A stretch of DNA of 64,000 nucleotides, taken from Reinekea blandensis MED297. Its GTDB lineage: Bacteria > Pseudomonadota > Gammaproteobacteria > Pseudomonadales > Natronospirillaceae. The notes beneath the pieces were generated by a model. The model searched no databases. It was given only the letters and a program-made list of their open reading frames with translations, and was not told where the DNA came from. The stretch covers positions 510,789 to 574,788 of the forward strand of contig NZ_CH724149.1 in NCBI RefSeq assembly GCF_000153185.1. Direction: 5' to 3'. The translations under genes were made by a program, and so were the position numbers. Each line of letters opens with the position of its first letter. The first letter of the stretch is position 1. This document shows, piece by piece, positions 44,023 to 51,386 of the stretch.

Positions 44023-44147
44023 TGCCGCCTCAGGGGAATCGTTGATTGCACTCCAATAACTGAAGTTAAGCGAAGCTTTCACTAAGTCAGACTTCTTCAA
44101 ACGCTTCTGCGACCATAAATTGCTGATATGACAGAAAGCTTCTTTGT

Positions 44148-44173
44148 GAAATTAGATGGTGCCCAGAGGCGGA
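44148..44173 (-). repeat. tRNA-Phe 3'-end remnant A (old attachment scar)
   Basis: 26 bases identical to 44448-44473, comprising the tRNA-Phe 3' end (GGTGCCCAGAGGCGGA on the plus strand) plus its left flank GAAATTAGAT. The tRNA similarity stops after 44173, where a hairpin-rich stretch follows. Confidence 0.7.
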
Positions 44174-44301: not shown

Positions 44302-44331
44302 AAAAAAGCCCCGCAAATGCGAGGCTTCTTC
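44302..44331 (-). terminator. Terminator following tRNA-Phe remnant B
   Basis: On the minus strand GCCTCGC, four bases, GCGGGGC, then six T. It has the same position relative to remnant B as the terminator at 44415-44440 has to the intact-length scar. Confidence 0.75.
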
Positions 44332-44340
44332 GTAGAATAG

Positions 44341-44361
44341 GATGGTGCCTAGAGGCGGAAT
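44341..44361 (-). repeat. tRNA-Phe 3'-end remnant B (old attachment scar)
   Basis: 21 bases matching the tRNA-Phe 3' end with one change (GCCTAGAG for GCCCAGAG). Its flanks differ from the current element. Confidence 0.65.
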
Positions 44362-44414: not shown

Positions 44415-44440
44415 GAAAAAAGCCCGCTTTTCAGCAGGCT
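44415..44440 (-). terminator. Original tRNA-Phe terminator, displaced by the element
   Basis: On the minus strand AGCCTGCT, four bases, AGCGGGCT (one G-U pair), then six T. It lies 15 bases beyond the displaced tRNA 3' end, where the tRNA transcript would have ended before insertion. Confidence 0.75.
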
Positions 44441-44454
44441 TCTATCGGAAATTA

Positions 44455-44501
44455 GATGGTGCCCAGAGGCGGAATCGAACCACCGACACGGGGATTTTCA
44501 G
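44455..44501. repeat. Left 47-bp attachment repeat (displaced tRNA-Phe 3' half)
   Basis: Identical to 51078-51124. It covers the tRNA 3' end through the T-arm to the anticodon loop (ATTTTCAG), after which the sequence becomes element-specific (GTGAGGCTG). Confidence 0.95.
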
Positions 44502-44631
44502 GTGAGGCTGCTCCAAGTCACTGAATTCACTGGGTTTTCCCGTATCATCGGTTAGTGCGTTCTCTGTCAATCACCGTTCAATCAGGTCATTTGGTACAGG
44601 TCTGTAACATATGTTCGGCGGATTTGTATTC

Positions 44632-46224
44632 ATGCACCTTATAAAGCGTGGTCAGGTTTATTACTTCAATCGGTGGGTTGTTGGCAGGGTTCTTCGGTTT
44701 TCTCTTAAGACGAATGATAGGTACAGGGCAATCGCTGTATCCGCTCGTGTTGGAAAGAAAGTCAGTCGGTGGGAGTTGTACTTGGACTATAAAGAAATCA
44801 AGCAGAGAGCACTTCAGGAAGCCCAGAAGGCACATGCCGATTGGTTGACTGATCACTTCAATGGTGTTGATTTGGAAGTGGGTAACCATGACCTGCCTGA
44901 ATCACCTTACGATTCGGAGTATGAAGCCGACAGTGCAGCGATGGGTGTCGTTCAAGAGCGTTTAACTAAAGGAACGTTGTTGCCTGACGAGGTGGAAATC
45001 GCGTTGTCAGACCTGTTGTATTACGCTTTAAAAAGGCAAACGCTAGAAGGCTGGAACCAACCAAAGAATCTATTGGAAAGCATGAAGGGCGGCTCCTTTC
45101 GGGATGTAAGGACTTCTGACGAGCCGTTCAACGCACTGGTTGAGGATTTCATAGAAGGTCGACGTTTGAAGAATCCCGGCACCAAAGCCTCAACACACCA
45201 AGAGTATGTCGACCATGTCAACGAATTCTGGCTTCTGATGAACAAGCCTGCTTTGTCTGCCGTTGACAATGACCTTGCTGATCAGTATCTCAAGAACATT
45301 CAACAGCTACCGAAGCATTCAAATTCAGCGAAGTACAAAGGGAAAAGCCCTCTGCATTTGATCAGCATGGATTTACCGCAATCTGACCGGCTTTCCGGCA
45401 CTTCAATAAACAACCGTATTTCTCATCTGTCTTCATACTGCGAGTGGCTGATCAGGCAGGGCAAGATTTCGTCTGATCCCTTTAGCGGTATGACAGTCGT
45501 GTTAAAAGACAAACAACCCTATGCACCTTTCTCACATGAAGACATTAAACGGATATTGTCGTCTAAGCTGTACAACCATTCTCACCCGAAGTTTATTACA
45601 GGTAACCGACGCTCAAACTGGTGGTTGATTCTGATCGCTGTGTTTAGTGGTATGCGTCTGGCTGAGATAACCCAGTTGACCGTTGATGACCTGCGAGAAG
45701 AAGATGGCGTTTACTTCTTCAGCATTAACAGAGAAGAAGGGAAGACCGTAAAGAACAAGAATGCAGAAAGAGCCGTGCCAGTCCATAGCTTTCTGTTGGA
45801 CCTTGGCTTATTGGAATATGCCTCGTACCTCAGAAAAGAGAACATCGACATGCTGTTGCCAAATCTTCTGTCTGATCGAAAGAAGCCGGGGGACGGTTCA
45901 AGCCGGTGGTTCAACGAAAAGTACCGGTCATCCGAGTTTCCTGACTTTGTTGTAGAGAAAAAAGTATTCCATTCCTTCAGGAAAACCTTCTTTACTACTT
46001 GCTCGAACAAAGACCCGTCAGTGTCTTATCGGGCTGTTCTTCAGGAAGTTGTAGGGCATGAAAATCAAAAAGCCAAAGAACTAGGATCGTCAGCTACATA
46101 CATGGGCGGCTTTGAGTTACCGCTAAAAGCAAAGGCTGTTGAACTATTCACTTTCGATGGTATTGACCATGTCCGTGATCGTTTGAAAGGTAAAGCCAAC
46201 TGGCGGCAGTTGAAGCTTCCGTAA
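44632..46224 (+). CDS. int: Tyrosine-type site-specific integrase
   Basis: 530 aa from the ATG at 44632; an in-frame ATG at 44611 would add seven residues, but family members begin at MHLIKRGQVYYFNRW. The middle region has a core-binding SAM-like domain. Catalytic residues are Arg near 342 (SGMRLAEI), Lys in the KTVKNKN region, HSFRKTF near 447 (His and Arg), the GHEN His, and Tyr near 490 (SATYMGG). It catalyses integration into, and excision from, tRNA-Phe. It lies 130 bases from the left attachment repeat. Codon and base use are those of the element. Confidence 0.92.
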   Translation: MHLIKRGQVYYFNRWVVGRVLRFSLKTNDRYRAIAVSARVGKKVSRWELYLDYKEIKQRALQEAQKAHADWLTDHFNGVDLEVGNHDLPESPYDSEYEADSAAMGVVQERLTKGTLLPDEVEIALSDLLYYALKRQTLEGWNQPKNLLESMKGGSFRDVRTSDEPFNALVEDFIEGRRLKNPGTKASTHQEYVDHVNEFWLLMNKPALSAVDNDLADQYLKNIQQLPKHSNSAKYKGKSPLHLISMDLPQSDRLSGTSINNRISHLSSYCEWLIRQGKISSDPFSGMTVVLKDKQPYAPFSHEDIKRILSSKLYNHSHPKFITGNRRSNWWLILIAVFSGMRLAEITQLTVDDLREEDGVYFFSINREEGKTVKNKNAERAVPVHSFLLDLGLLEYASYLRKENIDMLLPNLLSDRKKPGDGSSRWFNEKYRSSEFPDFVVEKKVFHSFRKTFFTTCSNKDPSVSYRAVLQEVVGHENQKAKELGSSATYMGGFELPLKAKAVELFTFDGIDHVRDRLKGKANWRQLKLP

Positions 46225-46285
46225 AAAAAATAACCTCAAGTACAAGGGTATACAGGTACTCAAGGTTTATTCTGAAAGGTTGGTG

Positions 46286-46960
46286 CTACAGAGACAGTTC
46301 TAAGCGCTTCAAAGCCCGCTGAACGGTCGTTGGTTGGTAAGTTGAACCTCTACTGGTTCGTTGCCCGGAATCGTTCAGAGCGGCTGCTATGGCCCTCAAA
46401 GACAAGCCTTGTTTTACCATTGGCTCAAGGAGACCACGCAACGACTCGGCGTCAGTCTTTGCTTGTTCCTTTCTTGCTACGTTTCGCTTTGCTGTTTTGT
46501 CACGTAAACCGCCCAGCTTCACCCCTTTCGCTTTTACTTCAGCGAGGGCTTGTTTCGTTCTTATGCTGATAAACTCCCGTTCCTGTTCAGCTAACGCGGC
46601 GTAGATGTGAAGTTGGAACTTGTCAGCATGAGGCATCACCGCCACTTTCACGTCAATCCTTTTAATGACTCCGGCGATTGTTTCAACGTCTCTGCTGATC
46701 CGGTCCAACTTGGCTACCAGCAAGGTCGCTTTAGTCTTCTTTGCCAGTTCAACGGCCTCTAGGAAAGCAGGACGCCGTACCCCGTCCTTACCTGACAGAA
46801 CGTCTACGAAAGTGTCTATGACTTCGTGATCACCTGCGTAATTATCGAGGTACAGTTGAATGTCCCTTTCTTGCGCTTCAAGGCCCAGCCCACTGTCACC
46901 TTGTTTCTTTGTACTGACGCGTTTGTAAATCACGAACTGAACCATGACTGTGTCCACCAT
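46286..46960 (-). CDS. Serine recombinase (resolvase/invertase family)
   Basis: 224 aa. The N-terminal resolvase domain starts YKRVSTKKQGDSGLGLEAQ with the nucleophile Ser16. AKLDRISRD and FQLHIYAALAEQEREFISIRTKQAL are family motifs, and the C-terminus has a short helix-turn-helix-like end (SLRAIAAALNDSG). It could resolve element multimers or invert a segment. Having both a tyrosine and a serine recombinase in 6.6 kb suggests that the element replicates as a circle and needs a resolution step. It converges with the integrase gene 61 bases away. Confidence 0.88.
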   Translation of the reverse strand: MVDTVMVQFVIYKRVSTKKQGDSGLGLEAQERDIQLYLDNYAGDHEVIDTFVDVLSGKDGVRRPAFLEAVELAKKTKATLLVAKLDRISRDVETIAGVIKRIDVKVAVMPHADKFQLHIYAALAEQEREFISIRTKQALAEVKAKGVKLGGLRDKTAKRNVARKEQAKTDAESLRGLLEPMVKQGLSLRAIAAALNDSGQRTSRGSTYQPTTVQRALKRLELSL

Positions 46961-46989
46961 GCTGTGAGTATGTTTCTTTGCCTGACGGC

Positions 46990-47019
46990 AGTATCGTCTT
47001 CATGTGTTACATATGTCAA
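46990..47019 (-). promoter_or_regulatory. Promoter of the serine recombinase gene
   Basis: Minus strand TTGACA (47014-47019), 18-base spacer, GATACT (46990-46995), about 30 bases before the start. The -35 overlaps the palindrome ACATATGT, a possible autoregulatory site. Confidence 0.5.
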
Positions 47020-47097
47020 CGTTCGTTGTGGCTGTTACAGCGTCTATAAGGGATAACCAAGAAGCCCACTCTAATGGATTGTGGGTGGTGTTCTTGC

Positions 47098-47122
47098 GAG
47101 GGGGTAGGGGGTACGGGGGAAT
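47098..47122 (+). repeat. G-run motif, copy 1 (3' side of the polymerase-like gene)
   Basis: Three runs of five G separated by TA and TAC (GAGGGGGTAGGGGGTACG), preceded by GGG 14 bases before. It could fold as a G-quadruplex. A second copy lies at 48559-48576. Confidence 0.6.
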
Positions 47123-47192
47123 TCTATCTGGTCCGGATTATTAAATGGGCGCACAGATTTTTCGGCAAAAAATGCCGTAGACTATTTGACTC

Positions 47193-48530
47193 TCATTGGG
47201 TGTTTGTTGGGCAAGTGATGACGGCATTGAAACCATTCATTTCAGCGCTGTAAGCTTCAGACATGACTGCGTGCAACCACTCTGCATGACGTTGCTCGAC
47301 GATGAAGCTGTCATGGACCGGCATTATTGGAATGCCTTGTGTAAGCCCCGTATAAAGCACTTGGTCTGCTATTTTGCTGTCACTAAACTGCAACGACTTC
47401 CAGTTGTCTTTAAAGAACTGATTCGCAATACCTGAGTGTGCATGTAGAAATGAATCAATGACTTTTGATGCATGATCTATTGTGCATTTCAGTTCCCTCG
47501 CTGTCCCGACGATAGCTGTTCGTTTGTTCTTCCCATTGGCAACACGCATAAATGCCAGTTTTAGCTCATCTCGGCTAAAGCCAGGTATAGAATAGCAATC
47601 TTCAGATAAATGCTTTGGTACTTCGAGATTCGCTCGATGATACATCATACGTGGGTGGAGACTTTTAAAGTCAAGTTCAACAGTGGGCTGTCCGTTTACC
47701 TTAAGAGTGGCCCTTTCCTGTTTTCTCAGGTTTTGGGCTGTACAGTAAAACCTACCTTCTGAACGAAATTTATTCTTGAATATCCTTCTACAGGTTAGGC
47801 TCTGTTCATTCAGCTTGTTTTCGATGTGAGTGTTTTCTTTAGGCAAAATGTGGCTACAGGAGCTAACGAACGTCCAACATTGTTCCCGTCTTAGCTGATT
47901 CGTATGATCAAGACGGTTTCTCGTTTGCGTCGTATGAATACTTTCATCATATTCGAGTAATCTTTTGCTTTCATCGCATTTAAGCCATAACGGATCATGG
48001 TCATGCTCAAAGGAAACAACATTGAGGGAGGTGCAGTGGGTACGTAGCCATTCGTTCCATAATTCTGTAGGCCAGCAAAGCGTGGATAGCCCGAGAAAGT
48101 GATGTTCGCCTTTCGTACCAAGATGGTAGTTGACAAGGCCAAGTTTGTTAAGCCGTTTTATTGCGTCTGCGAACTGGTCCCTGTTATACGACCACGCTCT
48201 AAATCTTTTGCTGGCTTCTCCTTTTCTGTTGAAGCTATGCAAAAAGCCAATGAACTGCTTTTCATCTCCTTCGTTAGCTTCAGACGCCTGTGTCAGAGTG
48301 TAGAGTACGGCTGAAAATGCTTCCTTAGTCTGTTTGTTCATCCGCTTTCTATCTTGATAGGCGACGCTGAACAGGTCTTCAGCAGCTCTCCCCCATAAGC
48401 CTGACGTATAATCGGGGTAGAAGCTGTGTACGGCTGACGTTGGGCTGAAAGCGTAGTTCGGGCCGTCTCGTAGTGTTTTAAAGAATTCTGTGTATTTGTA
48501 ATTCAGTTCAATGTTGGGTCTGATAGTCAT
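47193..48530 (-). CDS. Putative replication protein with family-A DNA polymerase-like motifs
   Basis: 445 aa from the ATG at 48530, preceded by AAGGA; the longer frame has no ribosome-binding site. Residues near 284-292 read LDFKSLHPR, resembling polymerase motif A (DxSxxxxR, Asp285). RDELKLAF near 320 resembles the R-x3-K of the O-helix. PVHDSFIVE near 403-411 resembles motif C (VHDE, Asp405 or 406). The N-terminal 250 residues are unlike known domains and may bind the origin. Such proteins occur on small elements and may initiate their replication. Family assignment is moderate: no exonuclease or primase motif is seen, and no helicase is encoded beside it. Confidence 0.5.
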   Translation of the reverse strand: MTIRPNIELNYKYTEFFKTLRDGPNYAFSPTSAVHSFYPDYTSGLWGRAAEDLFSVAYQDRKRMNKQTKEAFSAVLYTLTQASEANEGDEKQFIGFLHSFNRKGEASKRFRAWSYNRDQFADAIKRLNKLGLVNYHLGTKGEHHFLGLSTLCWPTELWNEWLRTHCTSLNVVSFEHDHDPLWLKCDESKRLLEYDESIHTTQTRNRLDHTNQLRREQCWTFVSSCSHILPKENTHIENKLNEQSLTCRRIFKNKFRSEGRFYCTAQNLRKQERATLKVNGQPTVELDFKSLHPRMMYHRANLEVPKHLSEDCYSIPGFSRDELKLAFMRVANGKNKRTAIVGTARELKCTIDHASKVIDSFLHAHSGIANQFFKDNWKSLQFSDSKIADQVLYTGLTQGIPIMPVHDSFIVEQRHAEWLHAVMSEAYSAEMNGFNAVITCPTNTQ

Positions 48531-48981
48531 TGATTTCCTTATTTGTGGATATATAGGAGAGGGGGGTAGGGGGGAGTTAAAATGCGTGTTACTGTTACTC
48601 CTTCTTCTTATTGTTCCTATGTAGTTAATGAAAGAGAAAGAGCAGAAGAAGATGGACAAGAGTGTTTCCCTTGCTGTTCCTCTAAGGGTCGTAGTAATGC
48701 TATGACCGCTTCAGAACAGTTTTTTGTGAGGTTCTTCTCCTCTAAGGGGTACACTAATTGCCAGCCCAGTATTGGCGGGGCTTGAAGGAAGGTATGTGGG
48801 TGGTTGATTTTTCTGATCTGATCGTCCATGCACGAGCATTGAGAGACAATCAGTGGTGATAAGTAAATCTCTGCACCATTTTGACCCCGAATGTGTTGTT
48901 CAGGGCTACAACTGAAGTGTCAACCATCAGCTGACAGGCACTATGAAGTAATCCGTGTTCATGTCTGTCTGTTGATACCGG
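48531..48981. other. Intergenic region upstream of polymerase-like gene (possible origin)
   Basis: 451 bases without a credible gene. It contains the second G-run motif (48559-48576), a purine-rich tract at 48629-48660, two copies of CCTCTAAGGG (48679 and 48739) and otherwise AT-rich sequence. Lying beside the replication gene, it is a candidate replication origin. No iteron array is evident. Confidence 0.35.
48559..48576 (+). repeat. G-run motif, copy 2 (5' side of the polymerase-like gene)
   Basis: GAGAGGGGGGTAGGGGGG, nearly the same as the motif at 47098-47116 and on the same strand. The two copies flank the polymerase-like gene. Confidence 0.55.
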
Positions 48982-49557
48982 TCAGTCATCGTTAGTAGCG
49001 TCTTCAAAGAACGATTTGTCGTCTTCGATTACACTTCGTTTTTGATGGAAATCACTCAAGAAAAGAATGTTGCTTTTAATGACGTAAAAAAGCGCTTCTG
49101 ATTGAACAAAGCTGAGCATCACTACAAATGAGAAAGTGATTTGTTTAATGATAGATACTGTGGAATCTTCAAGATCAATGGCCTGACTAGTGAGGCCAGC
49201 TAAAAAAATAACCATAATAAAGAAAACAACGATGGCTGACTTCATCACCGTGGCTACGAGGCTTTCTAACCTTTTTGTGTCTGCACCTGTCTCACTGAAA
49301 TCTGCGGTTTCAACCTTGCGTGGGTTCGCTAAGCGATTTAGTGCGCTAGGGTATAAAATGGCAATCCATAAACCCATGATTGTGAATATGACCGTCGAAA
49401 TCAACAAAAGAACATTTAGGTATTCTTTTAGGCTGACCAAAGAATATTGAAAATCAGTCATTATGAACATGGTGCTTAAAGTGAGAAAAGCCAGTAAGTA
49501 GAATTTCCCTTTACTCATCATGAAACGTAGCACTTTAAACAAGGCCTGTATCTTCAT
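48982..49557 (-). CDS. Four-TM membrane protein, cargo gene
   Basis: 191 aa with four hydrophobic segments: about 18-33, 46-68, 108-125 and 138-158. A charged cytoplasmic loop lies between the second and third, and the C-terminus is acidic. It is not a recognised family; the general size and topology are those of membrane effectors in phage-defence operons and of holin-like proteins. It starts 12 bases after the 355-aa gene ends, and the two form one operon. Confidence 0.68.
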   Translation of the reverse strand: MKIQALFKVLRFMMSKGKFYLLAFLTLSTMFIMTDFQYSLVSLKEYLNVLLLISTVIFTIMGLWIAILYPSALNRLANPRKVETADFSETGADTKRLESLVATVMKSAIVVFFIMVIFLAGLTSQAIDLEDSTVSIIKQITFSFVVMLSFVQSEALFYVIKSNILFLSDFHQKRSVIEDDKSFFEDATNDD

Positions 49558-49569
49558 ATCTTTTTATCT

Positions 49570-50637
49570 CTAACTTGACTGACTGCTAGTGTTTTGGTCT
49601 TTCAGACCTCTTTTCAAAATCAGCAAATGTCGTTGCCGTTCACCTAACAGGTGTTGTTTTAAGTCATTAGCACTGAGTGTAACTCCAGGTGACTTTGGAA
49701 TAGAAAGTGATTCGGTCAAGCGGTATTTGGTAGCCCAAACAGGTTGGTTCATCTTACCTTCTAAAATGAAACCCGTATTGTCCCATTGGCGAGGGTCACG
49801 ATCATCCTTTGAATACTGCCTGAAAATACTCGCAATCTCTGTTTCAGTTGGGGAAGCCTCAATAAGTACTTCTATCTCTCGGTTTTTCTTTCCTTTTTTA
49901 ACCGAGACGTCAGAAAACATTTCGTCAAACATCTTAACCCACTCCGACCTGTGGTCTTTCCTTTCGACTGAAATGGTCTGACGTTTCACTACATGGGTGA
50001 TTTTGTTTGCCATTGCTCGAATTTCGAGTGTGTTTGAACTTGGCATGTACAGCTTTTTACGGAAGCGGTAGTTTAAATGCCGTCCTTGATCATCCTCGAA
50101 GTAGATTTTAACGCTTCCGTTCTCTTCATCAACGGTTTTCCTTTTACGGTCATGGCCGATGTGGTTGTTAATGCATGCTCGAACGAATTTCATGAATAAG
50201 GAGGAATCCGTCATTGAATGGTCAAATTTTAAAGAAACAACCGAGTTGTACTGAGGAATGATCCAGTAGTAGCAGGGACGCCCTAGAACTGTTCCCTTGC
50301 TCCCGCCTTGCTCTACAGCCGCAGGTGCTCCACGAGATTTGTCTATAGGAGCCGCATACAGCTTACCATTGGCATCTTCATCAGATTTCCACATCACCAT
50401 AAAGAAGTCGCCTGTAGGCTCATCTTTGACTAGGTCGTAACAATAGGCACTTGGGGTGTTGGAATTGGTATCTTTAGCCCATGGAAGCGTACTGGTCCAA
50501 GACGATTTTCCACCAGTCCATTGCAGAATCGCATCAAATGTTTCACTCAGATCATATCCGTCTGGTTTAGAACCATTACGTCGGTATAAACCGCATTCTG
50601 GTACTTCGAAGTAGCTGGCGTGACCATTGACTGCCAT
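49570..50637 (-). CDS. Unknown 355-aa protein, cargo gene paired with four-TM protein
   Basis: 355 aa from the ATG at 50637, which has AAGGTGA eight bases upstream; a longer frame would add 51 residues including a hydrophobic stretch but lacks a ribosome-binding site. It is not recognised. Regions of apparent structure include SSWTSTLPWA near 46-55, DFFMVMWKSD near 77-86, RPCYYWIIPQYNSVVSLKF near 115-133 and a C-terminal Lys-rich helix. It has no nuclease, NTPase or helicase signature. Its place as cargo of a small element, with a membrane partner downstream, is what defence or toxin-immunity pairs look like, but this is context only. Confidence 0.68.
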   Translation of the reverse strand: MAVNGHASYFEVPECGLYRRNGSKPDGYDLSETFDAILQWTGGKSSWTSTLPWAKDTNSNTPSAYCYDLVKDEPTGDFFMVMWKSDEDANGKLYAAPIDKSRGAPAAVEQGGSKGTVLGRPCYYWIIPQYNSVVSLKFDHSMTDSSLFMKFVRACINNHIGHDRKRKTVDEENGSVKIYFEDDQGRHLNYRFRKKLYMPSSNTLEIRAMANKITHVVKRQTISVERKDHRSEWVKMFDEMFSDVSVKKGKKNREIEVLIEASPTETEIASIFRQYSKDDRDPRQWDNTGFILEGKMNQPVWATKYRLTESLSIPKSPGVTLSANDLKQHLLGERQRHLLILKRGLKDQNTSSQSS

Positions 50638-51077
50638 GGATCTGTTCACCTTATTGTTCAAATTGGTGAGTGTGACCATAACCGAAATAGGCAGCCGTCG
50701 CCAGCATTCCCAAAAGCAAAGCAATAGCCCTAAACTCGACAGTGTAGAAAAAGTACCTAGGAGAAGAGTACATCCTTTAAACCAACCCATGCTTTAGGTG
50801 CTTTAAATTAAATATGGCTTACATCTTTGGTTCGTGCTGGACCTCAATATAGACTGGTTTTCACCTACACTTGTTGACTGTCACTAGACAAATCAGTGTC
50901 ATTGTTTGACTACGTTAAGATCACGAAATAGGTGTGTTTCTAAGGAATTTGCTGGTGGCTAAAATTACAAGTCACTAAAGGCAAGGCTTTATTAACATGT
51001 CAGCTGTGATACAGGGTGGTGTAACAGGAACTGCTCTTGTAGACTAGAAAGACTATATGTATCAAGGGCTTAGGAAG
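50638..51077. other. Right end of the element, non-coding
   Basis: 440 bases up to the right attachment repeat. It probably holds the cargo promoter and integrase arm sites: the imperfect pair GACTGTCACTAG and GTGTCATTGTTTGAC around 50877-50912 is a candidate. No terminator follows the tRNA on this side. Confidence 0.4.
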
Positions 51078-51124
51078 GATGGTGCCCAGAGGCGGAATCG
51101 AACCACCGACACGGGGATTTTCAG
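51078..51124. repeat. Right 47-bp attachment repeat (within intact tRNA-Phe)
   Basis: Identical to 44455-44501; the copy that reconstitutes the tRNA gene. Confidence 0.95.
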
Positions 51125-51155
51125 TCCCCTGCTCTACCGACTGAGCTATCTGGGC
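51080..51155 (-). tRNA. tRNA-Phe (GAA)
   Basis: 76 nt including the encoded CCA. Acceptor stem GCCCAGA/TCTGGGC, D-arm with AGCTCAGTCGGTAGAGC, anticodon arm GGGGACTGAAAATCCCC with anticodon GAA, T-arm TTCGATTC. The 3' half from the anticodon loop on is shared with the attachment repeat. Transcription runs leftwards into the element and the gene has no terminator of its own there. Confidence 0.97.
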
Positions 51156-51386
51156 TTTGACGTTCTAGGCTGTTGCCCCGTCAACGGATGCGTATTAAAC
51201 GGATTTTCATTTCACCCGTCAACACCTTTTTTGCTAAATCTTTGATTTTTTTAATAAAAACGTCCATTTACGGCTGTGCACTGGCCGTCCAGGCTACCTT
51301 TTTGGACATTGATTCAGCACGGTTTATTTAAAAACCAACGGTGTTAGAGTCTGTCTTCCTTTTCTGACATAAACGAGGGTGTGCTG

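Follow-up and report, generated by a model that had tools for sequence, protein, structure and literature searches.

A 6.6-kb element in tRNA-Phe of Reinekea blandensis with a TV-Pol-type polymerase and a candidate RexAB-type defence pair

What kind of mobile element occupies the tRNA-Phe gene of Reinekea blandensis MED297, and how could a unit of only five genes be copied and kept? We examined a 64,000-nucleotide stretch of this genome (contig NZ_CH724149.1, positions 510,789 to 574,788; hereafter the window), in which an earlier note, made from the sequence alone, had described a small integrative unit and suggested a plasmid-like satellite. The insertion is of an ordinary kind and carries an uncommon replication gene, which makes it a clean further TV-Pol element with a candidate RexAB-type system. 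Quite likely, it is an intact integrative element that resides in tRNA-Phe, would be excised as a circle by its integrase, copied by its TV-Pol and resolved from multimers, and would confer RexAB-like defence.

The sole tRNA gene found in the window, tRNA-Phe(gaa), has its 3′ part duplicated as a perfect 47-bp repeat. The two copies are spaced 6623 bp apart and delimit an element of 6623 bp (~6.6 kb), with a guanine–cytosine content of 44.5% against 53.8% and 55.1% in the flanks. Besides tRNA-Phe and the distal repeat, the genome yielded only two 77% tRNA matches. The features at the ends are as follows.

44416 to 44454, minus strand: native tRNA-Phe terminator, judged by eye, displaced by the element; it and the repeat together align to the stretch immediately 3′ of the tRNA-Phe gene of relatives
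44455 to 44501, minus strand: distal 47-bp attachment (att) repeat, a copy of the tRNA-Phe 3′ part; perfect repeat whose other full match in the genome is the tRNA only
51078 to 51124, minus strand: proximal 47-bp att repeat, nearly all within the intact tRNA gene; perfect repeat
51080 to 51155, minus strand: tRNA-Phe(gaa), identified by tRNA detection and left whole by the insertion

We compared tRNA-Phe sites in 12 of the 21 other genomes of the family, comprising all six congeners and 6 of the 15 others (genomes and loci carry our G and L numbers). In 11 of the 12, a rho-independent terminator, recognised by eye, stands directly 3′ of tRNA-Phe and the site is empty. At ten of these empty sites, the window sequence left of the distal repeat aligns along with the repeat, and the tRNA side of the window (51078–51260) aligns to the same place, the two alignments overlapping in the repeat. 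The left-side alignment starts at 44436 for L067, at 44302 for L068 and otherwise at 44416; for L074, the repeat alone aligned. Because both sides align to one place in the relatives, what lies left of the distal repeat is, judged by alignment, the tRNA-Phe gene's own terminator, moved 6.6 kb off. The search for empty sites in related genomes, which the earlier note had proposed, thus supports its claim of site-specific insertion into tRNA-Phe, and the perfect repeat enclosing five genes was found as described, with five open reading frames (ORFs) between its copies. The note had also considered that the repeat might be an assembly error; a simple error does not account for it, because relatives carry a sequence similar to that left of 44455 immediately after their tRNA-Phe gene.

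In the twelfth relative (G001), the tRNA-Phe site holds a different element of 10.3 kb, in which 49 bp of that tRNA are repeated (L069, 5673–15980). Among the six of its proteins that were scanned are a replication protein of the G2P type (PF23343), a protein of packaging type (phrog_2666) and a major head protein (phrog_8536); by this content, it is a small prophage. Left of the R. blandensis element, the 3′ end of tRNA-Phe recurs twice in degenerate form (44132–44173 and 44318–44359), each time after a terminator-like stretch, and G005 (L068) and G021 (L074) have similar tandem tails at their empty sites. Such copies may have been left behind by earlier insertions, or the tRNA tail may have been duplicated in tandem.

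All five genes between the repeats are open.

44611 to 46224, plus strand: tyrosine integrase, 537 amino acids (aa); PF00589 E 2.5e-8, PHROG integrase E 3.6e-26
46286 to 46960, minus strand: small serine recombinase (resolvase/invertase type), 224 aa; PF00239 E 3.7e-22, phrog_125 E 2.1e-29
47193 to 48530, minus strand: putative TV-Pol/divPolA2 family-A-fold polymerase, 445 aa from ATG 48530; phrog_4756 E 2.8e-42, motifs, AlphaFold2 model, profile–profile comparison
48982 to 49557, minus strand: M18B, a 191-aa membrane protein, proposed RexB-like effector; PADLOC PDC-M18B E 1.5e-14, hydrophobic segments, adjoins M18A
49570 to 50637, minus strand: M18A, ~355 aa, proposed RexA-like sensor; PADLOC PDC-M18A E 2.3e-41, AlphaFold2 model

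The M18A frame is open from ATG 50790 (49570–50790), and because homologues begin at ATG 50637, the gene probably starts there. The matches to PF00589, PF00239 and phrog_4756 agree with the gene content reported earlier (tyrosine integrase, serine recombinase, family-A-polymerase-like protein and two further genes), and the coordinates place the integrase, as stated, at the end distant from the intact tRNA, pointing inward. Searches with Pfam, NCBIfam, PHROG and PADLOC recognised no conjugation gene, relaxase, capsid, terminase/packaging gene or helicase among the five genes, in line with the reported lack of conjugation and structural genes. An integrative mobilizable element was rejected, as its defining gene, the relaxase, was not recognised among the five (Pfam, NCBIfam). 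A promoter and terminator scan gave no excess over shuffled sequences.

The polymerase ORF returned no significant Pfam or NCBIfam match; its PHROG family, phrog_4756, is annotated ‘unknown function’. It is no ordinary PolA, having no match to Pfam PF00476, and its 445 aa contain no nuclease domain by Pfam or NCBIfam match. The definition of TV-Pols (Iyer, Abhiman and Aravind 2008, PMC2579912) names one arginine in a hairpin, two aspartates in the palm, another in the fingers and an RxxxK motif. We aligned 14 homologues and, separately, seven proteins comprising five from phages plus the window and Marinomonas proteins, the latter two being common to both alignments. The palm aspartates (D287 and D407), the fingers aspartate (D311) and the RxxxK motif (R320/K324) are identical in all 14 proteins of the first alignment and all seven of the second. 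Ahead of the palm, arginine R260 is likewise invariant in both sets, and R249 and R273 are so in 14 of 14; R260 aligns to the GR of Pol I motif 1 in profile–profile comparison, and which of the arginines is the TV-Pol beta-hairpin arginine is an inference. Altogether, 11 columns are invariant in the larger alignment (R249, G259, R260, Q266, R273, D287, D311, R320, K324, H406 and D407), lying in what we take to be the Pol I motifs (GR...QN...R, then ELDFxxLH, RxxxK and HDS). The position that we take to be the steric-gate glutamate of Pol I is a histidine in 11 of 14 and 6 of 7 homologues, and the residue after the HD motif is a serine in 10 of 14 and 7 of 7, with two proteins shared by the alignments; HDS as motif C is presumably as in T7-type RNA polymerases.

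Structure comparison pointed the same way. An AlphaFold2 model built from three sequences had a mean pLDDT of 67, rising to ~88 over residues 271–440. Searched with Foldseek against the PDB, it gave a best E value of 2.1e-5 and 58 matches with E≤1e-3, and the 50 listed are family-A DNA polymerases by title. Profile–profile comparison with Pol I of 11 genomes yielded E 7e-4, and the second, phage-rich alignment E 4e-4, against 0.049–0.77 for seven unrelated control pairs. Both approaches support the family-A-like fold that the earlier note had assigned. TV-Pols of the subset with resolvase or integrase neighbours are characterised by a helical globular domain at the N-terminus. The N-terminal part here, ~240 residues ahead of the palm, has weak matches to helix-turn-helix (HTH) regulators (E 0.08–0.83), and model confidence is low in much of it.

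Using tblastn, the polymerase matched 145 phage records, 114 of them from Rheinheimera phages. Relatives are carried by large Vibrio, Rheinheimera, Aeromonas and Pseudoalteromonas phages, and the homologues include barbavirus proteins of the group called divPolA2. A viral structure search returned 11 close models (E≤1e-13), of which one, from a barbavirus, is named DNA polymerase. Scans of viral contigs found no relative with the window protein or four other queries (one a four-sequence alignment) and one relative with a Vibrio phage homologue as query, while a scan of bacterial genomes gave one match, in Marinomonas; these scans require exact short peptide matches. On this evidence, we file the polymerase ORF as a TV-Pol and as belonging to the same family as divPolA2, a link that is absent from the text of Iyer 2008 and from the available passages of PMC11348598. 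According to those passages (2024), divPolA2 of barbaviruses lacks an exonuclease and has an N-terminal domain of unknown type. The homologous proteins share a palm without exonuclease and an N-terminal domain of their own, but as described there divPolA2 is an accessory gene in large phages that also have a regular polymerase, whereas here it is the sole replication gene of a small integrative element.

A close published counterpart is the TV-Pol set itself. Iyer et al. (PMC2579912) predicted TV-Pols to be primase-polymerases of mobile elements, found a subset adjoining a gamma-delta resolvase, a lambda-type integrase or a transposase, and listed Reinekea and other marine gammaproteobacteria among the species. 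The window element likewise has a minimal family-A-fold polymerase without nuclease domains beside a gamma-delta-type resolvase and a lambda-type integrase, but lacks a recognised D5 helicase or Bro/KilA gene. That a polymerase accompanies recombinases, as the earlier note observed, is a recurring gene set; the note missed that this architecture had been published in 2008. The 2008 paper pictured replicative transposons, whereas here the ends, tRNA target, empty sites and defence pair are mapped.

How general is this arrangement? The phrog_4756 profile detected the polymerase in 31 of 390 genomes of the order, R. blandensis included, and in 0 of 14 control genomes; with the window protein as query, 2 of 57 genomes matched, again with its own, which holds one polymerase match only. 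We took in the neighbourhoods in all 30 other polymerase genomes. An integrase, whole or partial, lies ≤5 kb from the polymerase in 18 of the 30, and 15.6 kb away in G145; six of the remaining integrase-less loci end at a contig border within ~2.3 kb of the polymerase. The same profile found an integrase in 0 of 17 control loci (empty tRNA sites and M18 loci), a weak control: these loci were chosen after the integrase-bearing ones were known, and the integrase profile was partly built from integrases of the polymerase loci. Both recombinase types occur ≤5 kb from the polymerase in the window, L085, L090 and L197. A tRNA or tmRNA gene lies ≤700 bp from the integrase or polymerase in 14 of the 30 loci, and six other polymerase-plus-integrase elements are bounded by tRNA repeats of 20–64 bp, with the following far-end copies.

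L086, 31 bp; L090, 64 bp at 98%; L092, 48 bp (tRNA-Phe again)
L083, 24 bp; L147, at least 38 bp; L087, 20 bp

Among the loci run through this script, which do not include the polymerase loci added later, no far-end repeat was found at L081, L093, L094, L095, L096 or L099, and a 16-bp tRNA match at L098 is of doubtful meaning. These ends bear on the proposal of Iyer 2008 (PMC2579912), made with duplicated copies in one genome in view, that a TV-Pol copies its element into new places and that the serine recombinase resolves the cointegrates. For the window element, such replicative transposition is very unlikely: it is bounded by tRNA att repeats of the sort typically seen when a tyrosine integrase inserts DNA conservatively, the six relatives also end in tRNA repeats, and its genome has the one polymerase match.

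Integrase position is mixed among relatives. A layout like that of the window occurs in L142, whose integrase is the best match (37% identity), and in L146 and L147 (both 29%); the integrase is next to the tRNA in L090, L143, L086 and L092. Because the L090 integrase, the second-best match (34%), adjoins the tRNA, the far-end position was dropped as a lineage marker. L142 (8800–15180, genome G002), the closest integrase relative, spans 6.3 kb between two identical whole tRNA-Leu copies and has no polymerase.

Defence-type genes are carried by other members as well. We tested ten proteins picked by eye from four elements, a sample from which no rate can be derived. L090 carries an EcoRV-type enzyme, a cytosine methylase, an HNH protein and a KAP protein. 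In L092 there is a type III system, and the third protein tested is a transposase. L086 has an HNH-HIT protein whose PADLOC matches are only weak and a second protein without any, and L083 has a PDC-S42 match (PADLOC). By these matches, four further polymerase elements carry defence-type genes. In the Marinomonas element, the closest relative, an RNase H gene stands beside the polymerase (L085, 7704–8234, genome G187) and could serve in the removal or making of RNA primers. In L197 (6507–13037, genome G386), integrase, polymerase and serine recombinase genes sit directly after a tmRNA gene, so tmRNA may be a further target of the family. L091 (10475–11485, genome G105) has a single ORF matching both the integrase and the polymerase profiles, which looks like the outcome of a deletion that joined the two genes. 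A plasmid search with the element DNA gave, among the matches listed, only 1–2% query coverage, located at the att repeats; with the polymerase protein, it gave four replicons, and in one of them methyltransferase and helicase-family genes lie downstream.

Might the element instead be dead or merely a resident defence island, its replication genes relics and its polymerase part of defence or repair? Polymerase or integrase genes are broken in several relatives (for example, L083, L094, L097 and L099), a possible defence role for such polymerases is mentioned in the available part of Rice 2023, and repair or RNA synthesis is suggested for divPolA2 in that of the 2024 paper (PMC11348598). In the window, however, each of the five genes is open, the polymerase retains its motifs and the att repeats are still identical; we regard this reading as extremely improbable.

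A phage satellite (PICMI-, PICI- or P4-like) would be excised and copied only on helper infection and packaged in helper particles, with the M18 pair acting against competing phages. Its size would fit, as PICMIs in Vibrionaceae average 6.7 kb, and PICMIs likewise combine an integrase, a minimal replication set and defence cargo without capsid-remodelling genes (PMC10803314, in the parts available). Polymerase relatives in the large phages named above also fit. The earlier suggestion of a satellite nonetheless found no support: no helper and no packaging or capsid gene was found, no packaging-redirecting gene was recognised among the five, and the viral contigs yielded no polymerase relative with the element's own sequence or the four-sequence alignment, in scans needing exact short peptide matches. 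The genes that define PICMIs in the available text (int, alpA and prim at fis; PMC10803314) set them apart from the window element, which has int alone as far as recognised, lies in tRNA-Phe rather than at fis and has no known helper; PICMI membership was rejected, with ORFs below 60 aa judged by eye only. None of those small extra ORFs looked AlpA- or excisionase-like by eye, library searches of them not having been made. We regard a satellite as unlikely.

A family-A polymerase on a small mobile element with a recombinase is also known from the PolA-SSB (CcPol-MP) module of SCC elements, there often with restriction-modification cargo. CcPol-MP was shown to prime DNA synthesis (PMC10061031, PMC7581432, available sections), and the available text of the 2020 paper (PMC7581432) states that, to its authors' knowledge, no member besides CCPol had been characterised. 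As those sections describe them, the SCC modules of Bacillota combine a single-stranded-DNA-binding (SSB) partner with a replicative helicase and, for the most part, large serine recombinases. None of these was recognised here, and the Pfam PolA model gives no match to the window polymerase. An SCC-like PolA-SSB element was rejected: there is no helicase among the five genes (Pfam, NCBIfam) and no gene left for the OB-fold partner except small ORFs.

What, then, do the remaining two genes do? The earlier note had set them down as cargo; both are present, and it overlooked that they match the PADLOC candidate defence pair PDC-M18A/B (E 2.3e-41 and 1.5e-14). They are arranged A then B with a 12-bp gap. 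M18A occurs in 10 of 390 genomes of the order, R. blandensis included, and M18B adjoins it in all ten; in IMG/VR, M18A is present in 23 loci and both genes in 22, with several near-duplicates, one broken M18A gene (L176) and a 2.3-kb fragment as the 23rd. Matches were also obtained in five phage records. By eye, the contexts include a prophage and integron-cassette-like regions; in L154 (genome G181), the pair stands amid repeated short segments of the latter appearance.

An AlphaFold2 model of M18A (16 sequences, pLDDT 76.7) has lambda RexA (8twq) as its best PDB match (E 1e-3, probability 0.92, TM-score only 0.24–0.29), the next match having E 0.017. M18B has three hydrophobic segments in the window protein and three to five in nine homologues, against four in RexB by the same scale. 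Gene order adds to the likeness: a Vibrio phage has CI repressor, M18A and M18B in succession, with Septu genes adjacent as annotated, and Hafnia phage yong1 has CI, RexA and RexB. Among 32 M18 loci inspected for upstream genes, the window included, a CI-type gene precedes the pair in L160 and L172 (Pfam), with the same protein in L162, L173, L174 and L176, and an HTH gene does so in L150 and, weakly, in L170 and L149; in the remaining loci of the 32, the window among them, no CI or HTH gene was seen there. For P. putida RexAB, the available part of PMC12894663 reports 8twq as the best fold match of RexApp too, four helices in RexBpp and a need for both genes in defence. Like RexAB of lambda and RexABpp as given there, M18 is a two-gene unit whose first protein has RexA as best fold match and whose second is a small membrane protein; unlike them, it lacks a sequence-level match to RexA or RexB and sits on a TV-Pol element rather than behind a CI gene. 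Because the M18A model resembles RexA, M18B is a membrane protein and the pair directly follows CI in some phages, it seems moderately likely, from fold, synteny and published analogue, that M18A and M18B form a RexAB-type abortive-infection system.

Taken with the polymerase evidence, these data suggest the following life cycle for the integrative TV-Pol element. Recombination between the 47-bp repeats by the integrase would yield an excised circle. On it, the TV-Pol would start and carry out DNA synthesis, priming itself, perhaps at flanking G-tracts and with help from host helicase and replisome; the serine recombinase would resolve multimers, and the circle would re-enter tRNA-Phe genes. 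M18A would bind DNA and sense an infecting phage, and M18B would damage the membrane and stop the infection, as in lambda RexAB, a benefit to the host by which the element would be kept. Passage between cells might occur by transformation or by accidental or helped phage packaging. The replicating stage and multimer resolution that the earlier note had suggested are thus plausible parts of such a cycle.

Several observations weigh against this view. No helicase, iteron or res site was recognised, no small ORF looked excisionase-like by eye, and a search near the serine recombinase gene found neither repeats nor a res site. A serine recombinase accompanies the polymerase in only 6 of the 30 other loci (G054, G187, G174, G118, G386 and, through L147, G145). 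The polymerase model is weak across the N-terminal half. At profile level (hhalign), M18A against RexA gave E 0.29, within the 0.049–0.77 of seven unrelated control pairs, and M18B against RexB gave E 0.71, also within the range of unrelated controls; sequence-level homology of either pair was therefore set aside as not found. Lastly, because the M18 pair occurs in 0 of the 20 polymerase loci first examined and, in nine of the ten genomes of the order that have it, stands apart from any polymerase of this family, pair and polymerase element are only loosely linked; the polymerase is likewise in 0 of 23 IMG/VR M18A loci.

With exact ends, empty sites, open genes and a Marinomonas relative, the five-gene element offers a small natural system for testing the 2008 TV-Pol prediction. 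It joins three separate labels (TV-Pol, phage divPolA2 and phrog_4756), and PADLOC's unnamed candidate PDC-M18 gains a concrete, testable reading as a RexAB-type system, of which a 2026 paper (PMC12894663, available part) counts no more than five described cases. In our literature search, none of the titles and abstract openings listed names a TV-Pol tRNA element with defence cargo, and no paper on the name ‘PDC-M18’ was found in the limited collection searched.

A bolder version is doubtful, though conceivable: a single-protein replication module in which the TV-Pol would find its origin at the flanking GGGGGTA(G/C)GGGGG, prime and extend without a helicase or SSB of its own, with cargo from an unrecognised, widely scattered RexAB superfamily. 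A ribonucleotide start would be possible because a histidine stands at the presumed steric-gate position and motif C reads HDS, presumably as in T7-type RNA polymerases. The G-tracts flank the polymerase gene and are, by inference, candidates for an origin or for sites at which the polymerase acts.

47100 to 47119, plus strand: candidate G-tract GGGGGTAGGGGGTACGGGGG, downstream of the polymerase gene
48561 to 48574, plus strand: candidate G-tract GGGGGGTAGGGGGG, a short way upstream of the polymerase start codon

GGGGGTA(G/C)GGGGG has 31 sites in 25 of the 390 genomes and is not enriched as such, the reversed-pattern control occurring likewise in many genomes. Among the 29 polymerase genomes other than R. 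blandensis and G068, only G054 and G118 contain it, on other contigs or far off. As an origin, the G-tract is a lead common to the window and one relative, not family-wide. Both sites of the R. blandensis genome flank its polymerase gene, and the sole site of G068 (L083, 10015) lies ~320 bp from its broken polymerase gene.

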